In this document: positions 38,045 to 49,237 of the stretch, in pieces
Layout: each line of letters opens with the position of its first letter
How positions within the stretch are numbered: position 1 is the stretch's first letter
NCBI RefSeq assembly: GCF_000798815.1
Contig: NZ_JTLD01000022.1
Location: 1 to 64,000 of the forward strand
Length of the DNA: 64,000 nucleotides
Origin: Alistipes sp. ZOR0009
Lineage (GTDB): Bacteria; Bacteroidota; Bacteroidia; Bacteroidales; ZOR0009
Direction: 5' to 3'
Made by a program: the position numbers and the translations under genes
The notes under the pieces: generated by a model
Seen by the model: only the letters and a program-made list of their open reading frames with translations
Told to the model about the DNA's origin: nothing
Database searches by the model: none

Positions 38045-39859
38045 ATGAAGAATATTTATAAAATTTTCCGATTCATGGTTCCCTACAGGGGACGCATAGT
38101 TGCATTTGTATTTCTGTCTATTCTACTTGCAATTTTTTCGGTAGCATCCATTTCCGTTCTGATTCCTTTCTTACAGATTCTATTTAAGCAATCTGTAGTT
38201 GTGTCAAATCCCGTAGCATGGGAGTTTACTTCAGATGCTATTCGTCATAACATATCGTACTATATTAGCCAATACGTTGTTGAACATGGCGCTATTGCTA
38301 CCCTTGGAATTTTAAGCATTGGGGTGGCGTTGCTATTCTTTTTTAAGAATCTATTCGAATACCTCACCAGCTTTGTGATGATTCCACTTCGCAACGGTGT
38401 GGTTATGGATATTCGCATGTCGCTATACCGTAAAATAATGGAGCTGCCATTGGGCTACTATAGCGAAGAGCGAAAAGGGGATGTGATGGCAAAAATGACG
38501 AACGACGTAAACGAGATTGAAGCATCAGTAGTTCGTTCTTTAGAGCTTCTTTTTAAGGATCCTCTTTTGCTGATAGCCTATCTTACCGCACTTATTATTA
38601 TAAGCCCTCAGCTATCGCTATTCGTTTTGGTGATGATTTTGGTGACGGTTTTTATTCTAGGGCGGATTGGAAAATCGCTTCGTAAAACATCCTATAAGGC
38701 GCAAAATAGCTTGGGCGATATTCTTTCTGCTATAGAAGAAACGCTTGGTGGATTGCGCGTTGTAAAAGGGTTTACAGCAGAACGACAAATGACTGCAAAG
38801 TTTAAAAGCCTAAATGATAGGTACCGAAAACTTTGTAACCATGCTTCATGGCGTAGGGATTTGGCTTCTCCTTTAAGCGAGTTTTTGGGAGTTGGCGTTG
38901 TTGTTGCCGTACTTATGTATGGTGGTAGGTTGGTTTTAAGCGATAAGCCAACTTTAACTCCAGCTGAGTTGATTGCCTACCTTGCTGCATTCTCGCAGCT
39001 GCTTAACCCCGCAAAACGTTTCTCACAATCGTACTATAACATAGTAAAAGGTATGGCATCTGCCGATCGTATCGATGCGATTCTTTCGGCTGTTAACCCA
39101 ATTAAGGATAACGAAGATGCACAACCGATTGCTGGGTTTAAAAGTCAAATTGAGTTCAGGAATGTAAGCTTCAAGTACGGAGACGAATGGGTGCTTCGGA
39201 ATGTGTCTTTTACCGTTGAAAAGGGGAAAACAATTGCTTTGGTTGGACAATCGGGATCTGGTAAATCCACCATTGTAGATTTGCTTCCTCGTTTTTGGGA
39301 CATCCAAGAAGGTGAAATACTAATTGATGGCGTGAACGTCAAGAACTATAAGCTGCACGACCTGCGTCTTTTAATGGGTATTGTTAACCAGGAGCCGATA
39401 CTATTTAACGACACCTACTTCAATAACATCGCATTTGGTGTTGATAATGCAACTGAAGCGGAGGTTATTGCAGCCGCAAAGGTGGCAAACGCTCACGAGT
39501 TTGTGGCGGCTACACCAAACGGCTACCAAACGGTAGTAGGAGATAGAGGAAGTAAGATGTCTGGCGGACAGCGTCAGCGTATTTCTATTGCACGTGCTGT
39601 TTTGGCCAATCCTCCTATTATGATTTTGGACGAGGCAACTTCTGCTTTGGATACCGAAAGCGAAAAAATAGTACAATCGGCGCTTGACAATCTGATGCAA
39701 AATCGTACTTCTATTGTTATTGCTCACCGTCTTTCTACTATTAGAAACGCGGATGAAATTCTGGTTGTAAATGAAGGACAAATTGCCGAGCGTGGTTCCC
39801 ACGAGTCGTTACTGTCTCTAAATGGAATTTACCATAAGCTACATTCGATGCAGAAGTAG
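38045..39859 (+). CDS. MsbA-like ABC exporter (permease-ATPase fusion)
   Basis: 604 residues. An N-terminal six-helix export domain (about 1-330) is joined to an ATPase domain with Walker A GQSGSGKST at 401-409, signature MSGGQRQR, Walker B IMILDEATSALD and the switch IVIAHRLST. The architecture fits MsbA-type lipid A flippases; other lipid or drug substrates are possible. The nearby Lpt permease gene makes an LPS role reasonable but not proven. Confidence 0.88.
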   Translation: MKNIYKIFRFMVPYRGRIVAFVFLSILLAIFSVASISVLIPFLQILFKQSVVVSNPVAWEFTSDAIRHNISYYISQYVVEHGAIATLGILSIGVALLFFFKNLFEYLTSFVMIPLRNGVVMDIRMSLYRKIMELPLGYYSEERKGDVMAKMTNDVNEIEASVVRSLELLFKDPLLLIAYLTALIIISPQLSLFVLVMILVTVFILGRIGKSLRKTSYKAQNSLGDILSAIEETLGGLRVVKGFTAERQMTAKFKSLNDRYRKLCNHASWRRDLASPLSEFLGVGVVVAVLMYGGRLVLSDKPTLTPAELIAYLAAFSQLLNPAKRFSQSYYNIVKGMASADRIDAILSAVNPIKDNEDAQPIAGFKSQIEFRNVSFKYGDEWVLRNVSFTVEKGKTIALVGQSGSGKSTIVDLLPRFWDIQEGEILIDGVNVKNYKLHDLRLLMGIVNQEPILFNDTYFNNIAFGVDNATEAEVIAAAKVANAHEFVAATPNGYQTVVGDRGSKMSGGQRQRISIARAVLANPPIMILDEATSALDTESEKIVQSALDNLMQNRTSIVIAHRLSTIRNADEILVVNEGQIAERGSHESLLSLNGIYHKLHSMQK

Positions 39860-42137: not shown

Positions 42138-43154
42138 ATGAAAATTTTGATTACTGGTTCGGCGGGATTTATAGGGGCACATGTAACAGCTCGGTTGCTC
42201 GAAATGGGGCATACCGTTGTTGGCATCGATAGTATTAACGACTACTACGATGTGGATCTTAAGCTCAATAGGCTGCAATCGTTAGGCGGAATTTTGGCAT
42301 CGGAGATTTCCGAGTTGGATTTTGTACAGAGCCGTAAGTACGAACGCTACCGATTTATTCGACTTAACACGCAACAAAGGGAACGTATTGCCGAGATATT
42401 CAGCTCTGAGAGGTTCGACGCGGTATGCCACCTAGCTTCGCAATCGGGTGTTCGATACTCTGTCGAGAATCCGTACGCCTATATAGATAACAACATAAAC
42501 GGGTTTATACCCATCCTTGAAGGGTGTCGGCACAACGGTGTTGGTAAGCTGGTTTACGCGAGCTCGAGTAGCGTTTACGGCGACAGCGACGTAGTTCCCT
42601 TTTCGGAGGAGTTCTGTGTAACGCGCCCTGCCAGCCTTTATGCAGCAACAAAGAAGGCCAACGAGCTGATGGCCTATTCCTATAGCAGCTTATATCAATT
42701 TCAAACTGTAGGTCTTCGATTTTTTACGGTATACGGTCCTTGGGGCCGTCCCGATATGGCTCCTTTTCTCTTTAGTCGTTCAACCATCGAAGGTAGGCCC
42801 ATAAAGGTGTTCAACAACGGGGATTTATACCGCGACTTTACCTATATCGACGACATAGTAGAGGGGATTGTGCGGATACTTTTTGATTATACGAACGAGG
42901 AGGAGGTTCCTTACAGCGTTTTCAATATAGGAAACCATACGCCCGTTAAGCTTACCGATTTCATTAAATGCATCGAGCAGGCTTGCGGTAAATCTGCCAT
43001 AGTTCAAAATGAGCCTATGCAGCTTGGAGATGTCCACACAACCTACGCCGATGTATCTAAGCTCATAAATGCGGTTGGCTTTGCGCCCAATACCTCGCTT
43101 ACCGATGGCATTGGGCGGCTCGTTGATTGGTTGAGATGGTATTATAAGATGTAA
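42138..43154 (+). CDS. UDP-glucuronate 4-epimerase
   Basis: A 338-residue extended SDR enzyme. Gly-rich NAD site GSAGFIGAH is at residues 7-15. IDSINDYYDVDLKLNRL and RFFTVYGPWGRPDMAPFLF are specific hallmarks of UDP-glucuronate 4-epimerases (LpsL/CapI type), which make UDP-galacturonate. Catalytic YxxxK is in SLYAATKKANEL, and SSSSVYG provides the Ser/Thr. First gene of a five-gene plus-strand operon, with PHP next after 26 bases. Confidence 0.92.
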   Translation: MKILITGSAGFIGAHVTARLLEMGHTVVGIDSINDYYDVDLKLNRLQSLGGILASEISELDFVQSRKYERYRFIRLNTQQRERIAEIFSSERFDAVCHLASQSGVRYSVENPYAYIDNNINGFIPILEGCRHNGVGKLVYASSSSVYGDSDVVPFSEEFCVTRPASLYAATKKANELMAYSYSSLYQFQTVGLRFFTVYGPWGRPDMAPFLFSRSTIEGRPIKVFNNGDLYRDFTYIDDIVEGIVRILFDYTNEEEVPYSVFNIGNHTPVKLTDFIKCIEQACGKSAIVQNEPMQLGDVHTTYADVSKLINAVGFAPNTSLTDGIGRLVDWLRWYYKM

Positions 43155-43180
43155 CCATTAACAAATAATGTCTGATAGCT

Positions 43181-44419
43181 ATGAAAAGAGTTGCGTTTGT
43201 AGGCCGCTTATTGTTGTTAGTCGTTTTGTTGGCCTTTACTATTATTGGTATATTTTACCTTTTTGCCCCGGTATACGACTTTAAAACTCCGCAGCAGTTT
43301 AGCGGAGATCTCATCTACAATCCTTACCAAAATATCGATTCCGCAACGTGGAAAAAGGCCAACTTCCATTGCCACACAACGGCATCCGATGGGCACGATA
43401 AGCTGGCGGTTGTACAAAAGGCGTATCGGAGCTATGGCTACGATATTTTAGCCGTGTCGGATCACAACTTGGTTATCAGCCAAGGGCTACCTGCCCAAGA
43501 GGAGATTCCAACCTACGAGCATGGCATCAATATTAGCAAGTTTCATTCGGTGGTGATTGGTGCAAAGCACGGTTCTATCTTTGATTTTGTTCTGCTTCCT
43601 ACCGAGTCGAACCATTTTTACACGCTAAAATGGCTTCGGACACAGGGCGACATTGTAATATTTGACCATCCCGACCGGACTCGATGGTTGGAGCCCGAAG
43701 ATGTGAAAAATCTGAGCTACTACGACATGATGGAGGTGGAAAGAGGCTTTACGAATGGTGTTTTGAGCTACTACGACGAGGCTCTTTCGCATGGGCATTA
43801 CTCATATGTCTTGGCTAGCGACGATTGTCACGAGGTGGGAAATCCAAAGCACTTTGGTCGGGCGGCAACCTTTGTAAGTACGCCAACAAAGCGCTATGCA
43901 GACGTTAAAAAGGCCTTACTGTCGGGACATAACTTCGGGTTAACCATTCCAGCATTTCGGGATAGCAATTATAGACGGTGGAGGCATTTCCATTTGCCTA
44001 AAATTCAAAGTCTAAAGGTAAGAAACGATAGCTTAGAGCTGGTTCTGTCGGAGCCGGCAACCATAAAAGTGTTTGGACATAGCGGAGTAATGCAGTTCGA
44101 GTACGTGGCTACCAACCAGGCTAAGGTGCCGTTTGTAAAAACGGATACCTACTTGAGGTTTGCTGCAATATTTTCTGATAGCGTTACCCTTTACACCAAC
44201 CCAATTGCCCGCTATAAGGGTGGAGCCTTCCCTGTTTTTCAGGATACCTCTTCGGTAAACTATCCGCTAACGGTATTGTACATTTTAGGGGTCTCCCTAA
44301 TTGTACTCTTCTCCTTATTCCTATTCTTTTTAGTGCTGGTGCGCACTTTGCCCACACGTTTTTTTCGAAAGGTAAAGCGGAGTAAGGTTGCCTGGCAGTA
44401 TGCAAAAAGCGAAAGTTAG
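43181..44419 (+). CDS. Membrane-anchored PHP-domain phosphoesterase-like protein
   Basis: 412 residues. An N-terminal membrane segment (about 9-30) is followed by a PHP-like metal-binding core: NFHCHTTASDG (His63, His65), AVSDHN (Asp94, His95), IFDHPDRTRW and LASDDCH. A soluble beta region and a second membrane helix near 370-395, with a basic tail, complete it. PHP domains hydrolyse phosphoesters, including phosphosugars. The core is predicted to face the periplasm, because it lies between two membrane helices. The substrate is unknown, and its place inside a glycolipid operon is the main clue. Confidence 0.85.
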   Translation: MKRVAFVGRLLLLVVLLAFTIIGIFYLFAPVYDFKTPQQFSGDLIYNPYQNIDSATWKKANFHCHTTASDGHDKLAVVQKAYRSYGYDILAVSDHNLVISQGLPAQEEIPTYEHGINISKFHSVVIGAKHGSIFDFVLLPTESNHFYTLKWLRTQGDIVIFDHPDRTRWLEPEDVKNLSYYDMMEVERGFTNGVLSYYDEALSHGHYSYVLASDDCHEVGNPKHFGRAATFVSTPTKRYADVKKALLSGHNFGLTIPAFRDSNYRRWRHFHLPKIQSLKVRNDSLELVLSEPATIKVFGHSGVMQFEYVATNQAKVPFVKTDTYLRFAAIFSDSVTLYTNPIARYKGGAFPVFQDTSSVNYPLTVLYILGVSLIVLFSLFLFFLVLVRTLPTRFFRKVKRSKVAWQYAKSES

Positions 44420-44507
44420 GGACGTATTTTTTGGTAATGGACTACTTTAGTTAGTAAATATTTGTTAAATTGTATAGGTCTTACAAATGCTGCAAACTTG
44501 TTGTGCT

Positions 44508-45446
44508 ATGTACGAACTCTCTTTAGTTATCACGCTGCTTAACGAGGAGGAAAATATCTCTCCGCTACATTCGGCCATTAGGGCGGCCTTGTCGGGATAC
44601 AACTACGAGGTAGTTTTTGTCGATGATGGCTCCACCGACGGCACTGTCAGAGAAATAAAGAAGCTACAGAACGACCGCGTAAAGCTGGTGAAGCTTAGCA
44701 AGAACTACGGGCAGAGCATCGCCATGAGTGCGGGTATTGACCATGCTCAAGGCGAATACATTGTGCTACTTGATGGAGATTTGCAGAACGATCCGGCCGA
44801 CATCCCTTTTATGCTCGAAAAGCTCAAGTCGGAAGATTGGGATGTGGTGGCCGGAAACCGACGAAACAGGCAGGATGGCATGTTCCTCCGCAAGCTTCCC
44901 AGCAATATCGCCAATGCAATGATCCGCCGATATACCGGTGTGCATCTTAGGGATTACGGATGTACGCTTAAAATATTCAAGCACGAGATTGCCAAAAATC
45001 TAGATCTCTACGGCGAGCTGCATCGGTTTATTCCCGTGCTGGCAAGCCTGCAGGGAGCTCGCATTGTGCAGGTAGACGTGCACCACCATGCCCGCAAGTT
45101 TGGCCACTCGAAGTATGGCATTGGTAGAACCTTTAAGGTTGCTAGCGACTTGATACTAATCCTATTTCTACAGCGCTACCTCCGCAAGCCCATGCATCTA
45201 TTTGGAGGGATAGGGCTTTTCCTGCTGCTTCCGGGTATTCTTATAATGCTGTACATGCTGGTCATAAAGCTGCTGGGCGAAAATATTTGGGGAAAACCGA
45301 TCCTGATACTGGGCGTTTTGCTCATAATTATTGGCGTTCTATTCATTATGATGGGCATAATGACCGAATTGCTAATGCGAATTTACTATGGTACCGGCAA
45401 TCGGAGGCTATACCTGGTGAAAGAACTCTACAATGGCGCAAACTAG
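44508..45446 (+). CDS. GT2 polyprenyl-phosphate glycosyltransferase
   Basis: 312 residues. A cytosolic GT2 domain has VVFVDDGSTDGT and LLDGDLQNDP (DxD region). Two C-terminal membrane segments follow (about 230-290). This is the DPM1/GtrB/ArnC/RgtE layout, which transfers a sugar from UDP-sugar to undecaprenyl phosphate. Next to a UDP-GlcA epimerase, the donor is probably UDP-GalA (inference). An upstream ATG at 44487 is an alternative start. The next gene overlaps its end by 14 bases. Confidence 0.88.
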   Translation: MYELSLVITLLNEEENISPLHSAIRAALSGYNYEVVFVDDGSTDGTVREIKKLQNDRVKLVKLSKNYGQSIAMSAGIDHAQGEYIVLLDGDLQNDPADIPFMLEKLKSEDWDVVAGNRRNRQDGMFLRKLPSNIANAMIRRYTGVHLRDYGCTLKIFKHEIAKNLDLYGELHRFIPVLASLQGARIVQVDVHHHARKFGHSKYGIGRTFKVASDLILILFLQRYLRKPMHLFGGIGLFLLLPGILIMLYMLVIKLLGENIWGKPILILGVLLIIIGVLFIMMGIMTELLMRIYYGTGNRRLYLVKELYNGAN

Positions 45447-46293
45447 GGTATACCGAGTTCTTACTGCTGCTGCCAAAATTGCCATTTCGGGAGGTGCGGT
45501 TTGGTTTGTCCTTTCTAAAGTAGACGGAAGAGAGCTTATCGGTGCATTTCGGAATGTGTGCTGGTGGATGCTTATCTTGTCGGCCGTGCTGTTTGTGGAA
45601 TCCAAGGTGGTGTCGGCCTATCGGCTGCAGGTATACTTTCGGAATGTAGATGTGGCTATTACTCCCTCCACCAACCTTCGGCTCTACTGGTTAGGAATGT
45701 TCTACAACCTCTTCTTACCCGGCGGTATTGGTGGCGATGGCTACAAGGTGTGGCTGCTGCATCGGCAGGCGGGTTACTCGGTTAAAAGAACCGCTGCTGC
45801 GGTGCTTCTGGATCGTGTAAATGGGATGCTTGCCATTGTATTGTTGGCCTTGCTACTGGCGCTTTTTATCCCCGAGCTGGGCTGGTATCGGTATGCAGCA
45901 GCGCTGCTACTCCCTTTATCCGTATTGCTATACAGCTATCTGGTGGCGAAGCTCTTTCCATCATTTTATACAAGCATTCGCGCTACAACGCTGCTCTCTT
46001 TTGCCGTACAGCTGCTTCAGGTTTTGTCGGTGCTGCTGATTATTGGAGCCATTGGCATTACCAGCTTCTATCTCGAGCTGGTGCTGGTATTCCTTATCTC
46101 CTCGGCGGTTGCGGTGCTGCCCTTTACCATTGGAGGGGTTGGCGCGCGCGAGGTGGTTTTCCTCTACGGAAGCACCATCTTAGGGCTCGACTCTTCGCTT
46201 TCGGTGGCCATCAGCTTTATCTTCTTTACGATTACGGCGGTGGTGTCGTTGGGCGGAGTTTACTATAGCATTGCTAAAATATCCATTAAATAG
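45433..46293 (+). CDS. UPF0104/LPG-synthase-type flippase-like membrane protein
   Basis: 286 residues with about seven to eight membrane segments. The conserved loop FLPGGIGGDGYK is characteristic of the lysylphosphatidylglycerol-synthase transmembrane (UPF0104) family, whose MprF member flips modified lipids. VAVLPFTIGGVGAREVVFLYG is the second signature. A role flipping a polyprenyl-phosphate sugar across the membrane is inferred from gene order. It overlaps the GT2 gene by 14 bases, and the ArnT-like gene starts 11 bases later. Confidence 0.85.
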   Translation: MAQTRVYRVLTAAAKIAISGGAVWFVLSKVDGRELIGAFRNVCWWMLILSAVLFVESKVVSAYRLQVYFRNVDVAITPSTNLRLYWLGMFYNLFLPGGIGGDGYKVWLLHRQAGYSVKRTAAAVLLDRVNGMLAIVLLALLLALFIPELGWYRYAAALLLPLSVLLYSYLVAKLFPSFYTSIRATTLLSFAVQLLQVLSVLLIIGAIGITSFYLELVLVFLISSAVAVLPFTIGGVGAREVVFLYGSTILGLDSSLSVAISFIFFTITAVVSLGGVYYSIAKISIK

Positions 46294-46304
46294 CGTATCC
46301 CATT

Positions 46305-47900
46305 ATGGTAGAAAAACTGTTGAAAAGAAAAGGTTGGCTGCTGCTGCTGCTTGTTTTTTTGGTGGCTTTCATTGCCTACTCCAGCGGAATAGGGCGCAGC
46401 AGCATCTACATACTGGATGAGAGCAAGAATGCCCAATGTGCATGGGAGATGATGCACTCTTCCGATCATATTGTGCCCACCTTTAACGGCAAGCTGCGTA
46501 CCGACAAGCCATCGTTGCACTACTACGCCATGATGCTGGGCTATTCGGTTTGGGGGAAGACGCCCTTTGCTGCACGTGTGGTATCTTCGTTGGTAGGAGC
46601 CCTTTTAATGGTGGTATTTGCCGCCTTTGTGACCCGATATGCCTCCCGCAGGGTTGCCTTTTGGAGCGTTGTGGTGCTCCTTTCATCCATAATGTGGGTT
46701 ACCGAGTTTCATCTTTCGGTGCCAGATCCCTATCTTATTGCATTGGTGGCACTTGGGCTGATGGCCTTTTACCACTTTATAGAGAGCCGGCAGCTTTGGA
46801 GCGTGCTGCTGATGTACCTTTTCTTTTCGCTGGGATTTTTGGCTAAAGGACCTATTGCCGTGGGGCTACCGGGGCTAATAGTACTCCTGCATCTGCTTGG
46901 CATACGCCAGCTGAGCTGGAAAACCATCTGGCAAATGCAGCCCGTGGTGGGACTAGCCATATTTGCCGTTGTGGCATTGCCTTGGTACTATATGGTTCAT
47001 GTGGAGACCGCTGGCGAATGGACGCGCGGCTTTTTTCTCGACCACAATATCAACCGATTTGCCGACACCAAGGAGGGGCATGGCGGTATTTTCCTTATAA
47101 CCATCCTATACTTTCTGTTTGGCTTACTTCCTTTTGCCGTGCTGGTGGTGGGGGCCACAAAAAATGCTTGGCGCGATAGGGGCAACCGCCTCACCAGATT
47201 TGCCTCTGTGGTGGTTCTTACCTTTTTACTTTTCTTCTCCATTAGCAGCACCAAACTTCCCAACTACGCCATGCCGTGCTTCCCCTTTGCTGCCATACTT
47301 TTGGCGCTGTACCTCGATAAGCTGCAGCGGGGTGTGCTACCTATCACCAAAAATGTGCGGGTTGGGCTATGGATTCTTTTTGCTTTCTCGCTGCTAGTTC
47401 CCCTTGCGCTAACATTCGGAACGGTAGCCGAACCGCTTTGGGCCAACCAGCATAGCTGGGGCTTATGGTTGCTCTTTTTTCCGGTAGGCGTATGGTTCGC
47501 CATTAGGCTAGTAAGCAGGGGAGAGGTGGAGCGCGGCTTTATGCTTGTCTTTGCCACCTTCTTTATGGTTACCGCCATCATTCATCTGGTGCTTATCCCT
47601 AAGGGCGATAAGCTTAATCCCGTGCAGGCTACCCTTCCTATGCTGCAAAAGGCCAAAGAGGTGCGCTACTTCAAAACTATCAACCCATCATACGTTACCA
47701 ACTTTGGGTTGATTAAGGAAATGGACGATACGGTAGGCGTTGCCAGCTACCTAAGCGCTCCTGGCAACCTACTTATAACCTCCCGCAAGGTGGTAAGGCG
47801 CGATTCGACCTACTGGCAGCAATTCCAAATGGTCTACTCGGCAAAAGATATATTCGACAATAACCACACCGTAATATTTGAAGGAAAAGGGGCTCGCTAG
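46305..47900 (+). CDS. ArnT-like GT39/GT83 glycosyltransferase
   Basis: 531 residues, about 12 membrane segments. The first periplasmic loop has the ArnT/PMT signature: ILDESKNAQCAWEMMHSSDHIVPTFNG followed by KLRTDKPSLHYY, equivalent to the DE and KP motifs that bind the polyprenyl-phosphate sugar. It belongs to the family that moves a sugar (L-Ara4N in ArnT, GalA in RgtA-D) to lipid A or core. Last gene of the operon, before a terminator. Confidence 0.88.
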   Translation: MVEKLLKRKGWLLLLLVFLVAFIAYSSGIGRSSIYILDESKNAQCAWEMMHSSDHIVPTFNGKLRTDKPSLHYYAMMLGYSVWGKTPFAARVVSSLVGALLMVVFAAFVTRYASRRVAFWSVVVLLSSIMWVTEFHLSVPDPYLIALVALGLMAFYHFIESRQLWSVLLMYLFFSLGFLAKGPIAVGLPGLIVLLHLLGIRQLSWKTIWQMQPVVGLAIFAVVALPWYYMVHVETAGEWTRGFFLDHNINRFADTKEGHGGIFLITILYFLFGLLPFAVLVVGATKNAWRDRGNRLTRFASVVVLTFLLFFSISSTKLPNYAMPCFPFAAILLALYLDKLQRGVLPITKNVRVGLWILFAFSLLVPLALTFGTVAEPLWANQHSWGLWLLFFPVGVWFAIRLVSRGEVERGFMLVFATFFMVTAIIHLVLIPKGDKLNPVQATLPMLQKAKEVRYFKTINPSYVTNFGLIKEMDDTVGVASYLSAPGNLLITSRKVVRRDSTYWQQFQMVYSAKDIFDNNHTVIFEGKGAR

Positions 47901-47929
47901 CCCTTTCTGTAGCATGTATATATATGTTT

Positions 47930-47963
47930 AGAGCCAAGGATTTCCTTGGCTCTAAATTTTTTG
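47930..47963 (+). terminator. Terminator of the epimerase-PHP-GT operon
   Basis: TAGAGCCAAGGA and TCCTTGGCTCTA around a 2-3-base loop, followed by AATTTTTT. Confidence 0.88.
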
Positions 47964-48592
47964 ATTTTAAAATCCCATCTTTCACGTTGAGATTAACTAG
48001 GCTGTGATCATTTAAGGTTCTCGTTCATTCTAATCCTGAAAGTAAATGCGATAGCATCTCTTTTTAACCTTTTCCCAAAACTATAGCGGTAACTTTTTGT
48101 GCATATATTTTCCTTAAAAATAGGCTTATAGGTGCTACCTGCCAAATGCAATTACCTACAAATGTGATTATACGGCTCGGTAGGTAGCTTATGATGTGTA
48201 AAAACGCGATTATTCTGCGTATATTTTTTGGTGGTAGGCCGATTATTCTCCCTCTTTTTGCTACTTTACAGGTGATATTGGCGCTAAGGAAGATGCGGTA
48301 GCGCTACTACGGCGCTACTTTTTGGTTGCTTTTTTGTATTGCCGCTATTTCTATATTTGCAGGATGATGGCGATAGAGGTTTGTGCCACCTAGGTAGCAG
48401 GTATTCGGAAGGGGCACAATTCGGAGAAGAATGTAACCCCAATAGGTGCAAATCTGCGTGCTAAGGATGGTAGCTAGCCGCACTAAACGGCGCTAGTGCA
48501 GGTCAGGTTCCAAACCTTACCAGTGTGGCAGATCATCAATTTACCTCTGCAGCCCAATGTCGAGCTTACGATTAATAAAAAAATATATCCGT
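47964..48592. other. Long intergenic region, no gene recognised
   Basis: About 630 bp. It starts AT-rich and becomes mixed. TATATTTG at about 48352-48359 is an exact -7 element that could give a leader of about 230 nt before the next gene. Small inverted repeats with GCGCTAC and CTAGC/GCTAG arms occur near 48298-48330 and 48476-48500. It fits no riboswitch class I know. Confidence 0.5.
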
Positions 48593-49237
48593 ATGAAAAG
48601 AGCCTTTTTACTTTTAGTAATGGCGCTAGCCAGCCTTCAAATTTATGCCCAGCGAATAGAGTTTGATATTTTTGGTAACCTAGAATACCGATCGAAAAAC
48701 CAGAGCTACCGCGCCTACCTGAAGGAAGATATCTTTAAAAACCTGATATTTACAGATAGCGAGAATAATGAGCTAACCTATAAGAAGGAGTATATTGATA
48801 TGGCCTACCCTAATCTGTTAGGATCTAAGGGGGAGAAGGTTGACTTCTTTAAATTTCTGCTCGAAAGATGCCGCCACGAAAGTGCCTACAAGGTAACCTA
48901 CTCGGTAGATATAATGGGTAAAACTATTATAGAGGATAGCAAAAACGGAAAGGTTGAAATGGAGAATGATATTTTTGGAAATCCCTCCTATAAGGAGACC
49001 AAAAATGGGAGAACGCTATCTATACGGAAGAATTTGATGGGAGAGTGGGAGTACCGATCTGGTATGCAGTCGGCAACCTTGAAAATGGATATCTTTAAGA
49101 AGTGGATCTACTCCGATAGCAGTAAAAATAAGTTTGAGTTTGGCGATAAAACGTGGGATAAGCTCCTGCAGCAATGTGGTAACGAGGAGGGCGTCTTTAT
49201 GTTCTTGCTTGATACCTTTATGTTCGACAGCTACTAG
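48593..49237 (+). CDS. Secreted protein with six ~20-residue DIFGN-type repeats
   Basis: 214 residues with a signal peptide (MKRAFLLLVMALASLQIYAQ). After the signal, roughly six units of about 20 residues recur with the pattern D-I-F/M-G/K-x-x-x-Y/I-x-D/E-S-K/E-N: DIFGNLEYRSKN, DIFKNLIFTDSENN, DIMGKTIIEDSKNG, DIFGNPSYKETKNG, NLMGEWEYRSG and DIFKKWIYSDSSKN. A non-repeat stretch (about 70-100) breaks the array. The repeats look like beta-hairpin or beta-solenoid turns. I do not recognise the family. ATG 48593 fits the signal peptide; an upstream start at 48557 does not. Confidence 0.78.
   Translation: MKRAFLLLVMALASLQIYAQRIEFDIFGNLEYRSKNQSYRAYLKEDIFKNLIFTDSENNELTYKKEYIDMAYPNLLGSKGEKVDFFKFLLERCRHESAYKVTYSVDIMGKTIIEDSKNGKVEMENDIFGNPSYKETKNGRTLSIRKNLMGEWEYRSGMQSATLKMDIFKKWIYSDSSKNKFEFGDKTWDKLLQQCGNEEGVFMFLLDTFMFDSY

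Follow-up and report, generated by a model that had tools for sequence, protein, structure and literature searches.

A PHP-fold protein as a candidate lipid A phosphatase beside capping transferases in Alistipes sp. ZOR0009 and other Bacteroidota

Phosphate removal and capping in described systems

Two kinds of transferase that have lipid A as their common acceptor differ in their donors, which are phosphatidylethanolamine for EptA and undecaprenyl-phosphate sugars for ArnT-like enzymes. The lpxE and eptA genes of Capnocytophaga canimorsus form an operon in which they overlap, and removal of the 1-phosphate by LpxE is a prerequisite for the action of EptA; in Helicobacter pylori LpxE also precedes EptA (PMC4730577). 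In rhizobia and Oligotropha LpxE or LpxF is paired with transferases of galacturonic acid (GalA) (PMC7663294). The subject here is a five-gene operon of Alistipes sp. ZOR0009 that lies in a stretch of 64,000 nucleotides, the window (bases 1-64000 of contig NZ_JTLD01000022.1 in a 4.45-Mb draft genome that is 99.99% complete). It encodes a UDP-glucuronate 4-epimerase-type protein, a PHP-fold metallohydrolase, an ArnC-like glycosyltransferase, a UPF0104 membrane protein and an ArnT-like transferase (Table 1). The chances seem about even that its products make a sugar, likely galacturonic acid, and install it on a dephosphorylated site of lipid A or inner-core lipopolysaccharide (LPS), with the PHP protein as a non-homologous substitute for LpxE or LpxF. 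The wider proposal, that the PHP fold is an undescribed class of lipid A phosphatase across Bacteroidota, frequent in gut Bacteroidales, that has displaced LpxE/LpxF beside EptA and ArnT-like transferases and was fused once, is put at just short of an even chance.

In the mechanism proposed, the epimerase would convert UDP-glucuronic acid (UDP-GlcA) to UDP-GalA, the ArnC-like glycosyltransferase of family GT2 would put GalA on undecaprenyl phosphate (Und-P), and the UPF0104 protein may flip the resulting Und-P-GalA. In the periplasm the PHP protein would hydrolyse a phosphate of the lipid A backbone, and the ArnT-like GT-C enzyme would then move GalA onto the freed hydroxyl. What suggests phosphate removal by the PHP protein is solely the gene-slot substitution described below, and lipid A as the substrate, the position involved (1 or 4′), the identity of the sugar and the flipping are likewise what we infer. 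The genome has a gene for LpxK, and so the 4′-phosphate is probably made.

The likeness to the LpxE-EptA operons of C. canimorsus and H. pylori is in a phosphatase gene that adjoins or overlaps the gene of a lipid A transferase and in the common proposed logic of phosphate off, then cap; however, their phosphatase, LpxE, is an integral membrane protein of the PAP2 type, where the protein here has a PHP fold, and their capping enzyme is EptA, where that of the window is ArnT-like (PMC4730577). The rhizobial system of LpxE/LpxF with RgtD, RgtF and RgtE also involves UDP-GalA, a polyprenyl-phosphate GalA and a GT-C enzyme that puts GalA on dephosphorylated lipid A (PMC7663294 and its ref. 11), but it has PAP2 in place of PHP proteins, the UPF0104 protein and the single operon are features of the window, and the Rgt proteins are set apart from the ArnC- and ArnT-like ones here by family label alone. 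Three-component glycosylation (GtrA-GtrB-Gtr*; PMC11127046) has, as here, a GT-A polyprenyl-phosphate sugar synthase, a putative flippase and a GT-C transferase, yet its flippase is GtrA (SMR) or a MATE protein in contrast to the UPF0104/TIGR00374 protein of the window, where there is in addition the PHP protein and the acceptor is probably lipid A. Lipid-linked pentose systems have phosphatases of their own, HAD and Rv3807c (PMC11127046), but these were rejected as models because they concern another sugar and are unrelated enzymes. No link of PHP proteins to lipid A or to phosphoethanolamine transferases was found in the open-access literature, and no report of a GalA cassette of this kind in Bacteroidetes was found there either.

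In Bacteroidota the phosphates on lipid A govern the strength of TLR4 stimulation and of resistance to cationic peptides, as shown for C. canimorsus (PMC4730577). Should the proposal be true, a PHP family for which there is no Pfam model would gain a function, it would be easier to predict from the genomes of many gut commensals which lipid A they make, and 'dephosphorylate, then cap' would have evolved with two unrelated enzymes. In Aquifex lipid A carries GalA and no LpxE or LpxF was found (PMC7663294); the PHP protein would then also be a candidate for the type of enzyme involved in such organisms.

Partner transferases of the PHP family

With the PHP protein of the window as sole query a scan of the genome collection gave no match, and a profile from an alignment of its relatives was required. 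The profile scan of named genomes gave 284 relatives, and the 80 loci kept are nearly all from Bacteroidota, many of them gut Bacteroidales. Within 1.5 kb of the PHP gene there is an EptA gene in 47 of 94 loci and a PMT gene in 17 of them (273 kb in total), and there are none of either in the remaining 790 kb of the 94 loci. L009 and L164 are apparently the same contig, so that one genome is counted twice. In Bacteroides caecigallinarum, Phocaeicola, Alistipes, Muribaculaceae and others PHP is directly followed by a gene that matches PF08019 and PF00884 and encodes a phosphoethanolamine transferase of the EptA type, and the B. caecigallinarum partner scores 609.5 bits with NF007160, the curated model for lipid A phosphoethanolamine transferases, and so passes its cut-off of 561. 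In other lineages the neighbor is a PMT_2 transferase, and in one locus (L029) PHP and PMT are fused as a single protein of 927 residues.

The proposal is that the partner of PHP is an ArnT-like transferase in some lineages and EptA in gut Bacteroidales. In a quickly made PHP tree, which has long branches, EptA-linked members are nearly all in one nested clade and PMT linkage needs at least four changes, and so exchange of partners probably occurred more than once.

Other genes are also found in these loci. A lipid kinase of the YegS/diacylglycerol-kinase type adjoins EptA in two PHP-EptA loci (L145:7898-8734, + strand; L151:4458-5369, − strand), a position that fits recycling of the diacylglycerol released by EptA. 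In another locus (L115:5966-8197, + strand) an in-frame fusion puts a cytosolic-type GT2 at the N-terminal end of PHP, with a product of 743 amino acids, and in L098 and L102 the GT2 and PHP counterparts of this fusion are separate neighbors.

PAP2 in the place of PHP

Beside homologous transferases that lack PHP, a PAP2 gene often stands in its place, a pattern of substitution but no proof of activity. Adjacent PAP2 genes are present in four of the seven EptA loci that have no PHP (L174, L175 and L176 by Pfam and L179 by a custom PAP2 profile), and two of the three without either lie at contig ends; L209, the lone EptA match of these searches that does have PHP, has no PAP2. At the strict cut-offs used, the EptA searches gave 5 of 257, 2 of 395 and 2 of 160 genomes, and so this contrast is small. 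Relatives of the ArnT-like gene of the window were found in 30 genomes, and PAP2 adjoins in 26, four from three families and 22 from family f76 (two genera). In f76 the order PAP2-ArnT-GT2-UPF0104 is near-fixed (22 genomes; L185-L203, also L089-L091), and these four genes are themselves likely an operon for dephosphorylation and glycosylation of lipid A. The window has the GT2-UPF0104-ArnT core, which recurs in other genomes, with PHP and without PAP2. PAP2 is within 1.5 kb of PHP in one of 95 loci (L125), and two further loci have it at ~3.5 kb.

From the pairing of PHP with EptA or ArnT-like transferases, and from its occupation of the PAP2 slot of homologous cassettes, comes strong indirect support for a suggestion of the preliminary description of this DNA, namely that the PHP protein could release phosphate before glycosylation. 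The same partners bear on a different role, that of an eraser or editor: as a phosphodiesterase PHP would take phosphoethanolamine or glycosyl-phosphate off lipid A and so tune what the partner transferase adds. One common acceptor would then account for both kinds of partner, and diesterases are known in the PHP family (PMC11656708). Such a role is unlikely, as the writer-eraser fusion of L029 would undo its own work and the PAP2 substitution pattern indicates a step ahead of capping.

The PHP protein

The PHP protein has no Pfam match and, in place of the PAP2 family (PF01569) of LpxE and LpxF, a predicted PHP fold; with NF038032, the CehA/McbA model, it gives 3.8e-16 and 59.4 bits, under the cut-off of 80. 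Its AlphaFold (AF2) model has a predicted local distance difference test score (pLDDT) of 92.3. Residues 55-258 match two PHP structures, 2anu (Z 16.4, root mean square deviation (rmsd) 3.1, 180 aligned) and 3e38 (Z 16.4, rmsd 3.8, 202 aligned). Around residues 272-345 the model has a beta-sandwich. Besides the fold, the HxH, acidic, His and DxH ligands of the PHP superfamily are all present (H63, H65, E113, H163, E185, D215 and H217), in keeping with the PHP assignment made beforehand. The structure comparison listed no lipid A enzyme, which is no evidence of absence. The stretches 1-34 and 358-395 are hydrophobic and each has basic residues on its outer side, and the domain between them is therefore predicted to be periplasmic; by this model two transmembrane helices should hold the protein in the membrane and the metal site should face the periplasm.

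Among 88 members of the family H63 and H65 are conserved in 80, E113, H163 and E185 in all, and D215 and H217 in 87, and a further three residues, the basic H114, K120 and H122, are invariant in the 88 but not in outgroup PHP proteins. CehA/McbA, 2anu and 3e38 share the PHP fold and the metal motifs; the window protein differs from them in its two hydrophobic anchors, its NPY and YEHG....KxH motifs, its C-terminal beta-sandwich and the linkage of its family to lipid A transferases. The members with QxQ in motif I (L116, L010 and other PMT-linked ones, eight in all) keep the remaining ligands, as if the metal site were altered and not decayed. A PHP relative in genome G015 (L012:2841-4004, − strand) is without essentially any metal ligand, and another locus of G015 has the nearest relative, from the same order, of the ArnT-like cassette of the window, with no PAP2 adjacent.

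A number of points weigh against phosphate removal ahead of capping by a GalA transferase. The substitution pattern is drawn from PAP2-ArnT genomes of which 22 of 26 are from one family and from an EptA contrast of just seven loci, and L125 holds a PAP2 gene (secreted-looking), PHP and EptA together. The best NCBIfam matches of the PAP2 genes are weak and are to undecaprenyl-diphosphatase models, so that these genes need not be for lipid A phosphatases. At 27 of 95 PHP loci there is no EptA or PMT transferase within 1.5 kb, and both motif-I histidines are replaced by Gln in 8 of the 88 PHP members; on both counts members need not share one activity. Motif II varies with lineage: it reads Asn-His where PHP is linked to EptA, Asn-Tyr or Asp-Tyr in most members linked to PMT, and the canonical Asp-His in the window. 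The sugar transferred could be other than galacturonic acid. None of the members of the PHP family here has a known activity, and CehA/McbA, the closest relatives with a name, hydrolyse carbamates, which makes an ester or an amide a possible target.

The last point leads to another explanation, that PHP cuts a different bond of lipid A or LPS (acyl ester, amide) or is a non-catalytic subunit that presents lipid A to the transferase. CehA/McbA is the best named model, the QxQ motifs and the ligand loss in the L012 relative would suit a changed or absent activity, and a subunit that presents lipid A would be in keeping with the PHP-PMT fusion. This seems improbable, since most ligands are retained in nearly all the 88 members and the PAP2 slot favors phosphate removal.

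Sugar synthesis and transfer

The closest solved structures to the epimerase are Klebsiella 5u4q (1.1e-107) and 6zl6 (2.1e-46), the latter of which we take to be the UDP-GlcA 4-epimerase of Bacillus cereus. The window protein retains the motif FTVYGPWGRPDMA, and R204 aligns via 6zl6 with Arg185 of BcUGAepi. Arg185 binds the carboxylate of UDP-GalA (PMC12338863). With an equivalent of this residue, the FTVYGP..RPDM motif and close similarity to characterised enzymes, the protein has the features of a UDP-glucuronate 4-epimerase and its product, judged from sequence, is likely UDP-GalA. Four strong genes of the UDP-glucose/GDP-mannose dehydrogenase family are present in the genome, and so a supply of UDP-GlcA is probable.

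The GT2 protein, in addition to its match to ArnC, has two hydrophobic stretches near its C-terminus. The UPF0104 protein scores 60.0 bits with TIGR00374, above the cut-off of 43.2. Acidic residues D38 and D141 of the ArnT-like protein are at aligned conserved positions of 5ezm and presumably correspond to the catalytic residues of the ArnT structure. Profile and structure matches agree with the families given for all five products in the preliminary description, and the GalA-type route put forward there fits these families and R204 of the epimerase, while its sugar and acceptor are what we infer.

By sequence the GT2 and GT-C subfamilies are like those of the enteric ArnC/ArnT aminoarabinose pathway, but the scores are far under the equivalog cut-offs (190.5 against 529 bits for ArnC and 145.4 against 567 for ArnT) and the operon has a UDP-uronate epimerase and, among its five genes, no ArnA, ArnB or ArnD. 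An Arn-type aminoarabinose operon was rejected on these two grounds, the missed cut-offs and the missing Arn-specific sugar genes.

The GT-A, transporter and GT-C genes have a three-component layout (PMC11127046), and the cassette might glycosylate some other envelope acceptor (O-antigen, lipoprotein or a protein glycan) with the PHP protein acting on that glycan, keeping in mind that PMT_2 transferases have varied acceptors. However, this is rather improbable when EptA, the second partner of PHP, scores as a lipid A transferase and PHP is common to both kinds of locus.

The cassette of the window also employs a lipid carrier, and three PHP loci adjoin DPM-like GT2 genes, as might be expected if PHP freed the carrier or cleared a by-product, for instance by hydrolysing an Und-P-linked sugar. 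Enzymes that liberate Und-P from Und-P-sugars and from polymers linked to undecaprenyl diphosphate are known, and such hydrolysis is proposed for UshA and UpsH of Bacillus subtilis, but these work on the cytoplasmic side (PMC11898649) whereas PHP is predicted to be periplasmic. The lipid kinase gene in some EptA loci would already provide for diacylglycerol, and carrier recycling, which the preliminary description had also raised, is set aside as quite improbable because the commonest partner is EptA, known as a family to use phosphatidylethanolamine and not Und-P.

Operon layout and neighbors

Phosphate removal followed by GalA transfer would be carried out by the products of five genes that have the order, strand and spacing described beforehand and are followed by the terminator-like stem, with intervals of 26 bases, 67 bases (88 if the GT2 starts at an internal ATG at 44508), a 14-base overlap and 11 bases. 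The 14-pair stem is the sole one of that length found, and terminator-like sites as a class are not in excess (11 found against 8.1 expected from shuffles).

Table 1. Features of the operon in the window
Feature	Coordinates	Strand	Basis
NAD-dependent UDP-glucuronate 4-epimerase-type protein, 338 amino acids	42138..43154	+	PF01370 1.1e-53; PDB 5u4q, 6zl6; R204
Membrane-anchored PHP-fold metallohydrolase, 412 amino acids	43181..44419	+	Predicted fold, metal ligands, hydrophobic ends, EptA/PMT linkage in relatives
ArnC/GtrB-type polyprenyl-phosphate glycosyltransferase (GT2), 319 amino acids	44487..45446	+	PF00535 2.4e-33; PDB 9hwj ArnC 2e-50
UPF0104/LPG_synthase_TM flippase-like membrane protein, 286 amino acids	45433..46293	+	PF03706 3.5e-34; TIGR00374
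ArnT-like PMT_2 (GT-C) lipid-sugar transferase, 531 amino acids	46305..47900	+	PF13231 3.4e-11; PDB 5ezm ArnT 5.8e-22
Intrinsic-terminator-like stem-loop, 14 pairs + T tail	47926..47957	+	Downstream of ArnT-like gene

The PMT_2 (ArnT-like) gene has one copy only in the whole genome and the PHP gene is also single-copy, and so their adjacency is unlikely to be due to chance. Two other species of the genus were sampled, and neither gene was found in them. The G+C content of the operon is 48%, and that of the window 43%; transfer into this genome and loss from the sister species are each possible. The five genes had been expected to be linked in relatives, but the complete set did not recur in any sampled genome, whereas the GT2-UPF0104-ArnT and PHP-transferase modules do recur. 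The five-gene set is a local assembly that points to a wider and, it seems, undescribed association between PHP and lipid A-capping transferases.

Upstream of the operon is a gene for an MsbA-like ABC transporter (38045-39859, + strand), which scores 493.8 bits with TIGR02203, below the cut-off of 602, and between it and the operon a FadL-type outer-membrane gene is on the opposite strand. A further gene at 48557-49237 (+ strand), whose product has no Pfam or NCBIfam match, encodes a secreted-looking protein of 226 amino acids with repeated DIFGN/DIFKN-like motifs.

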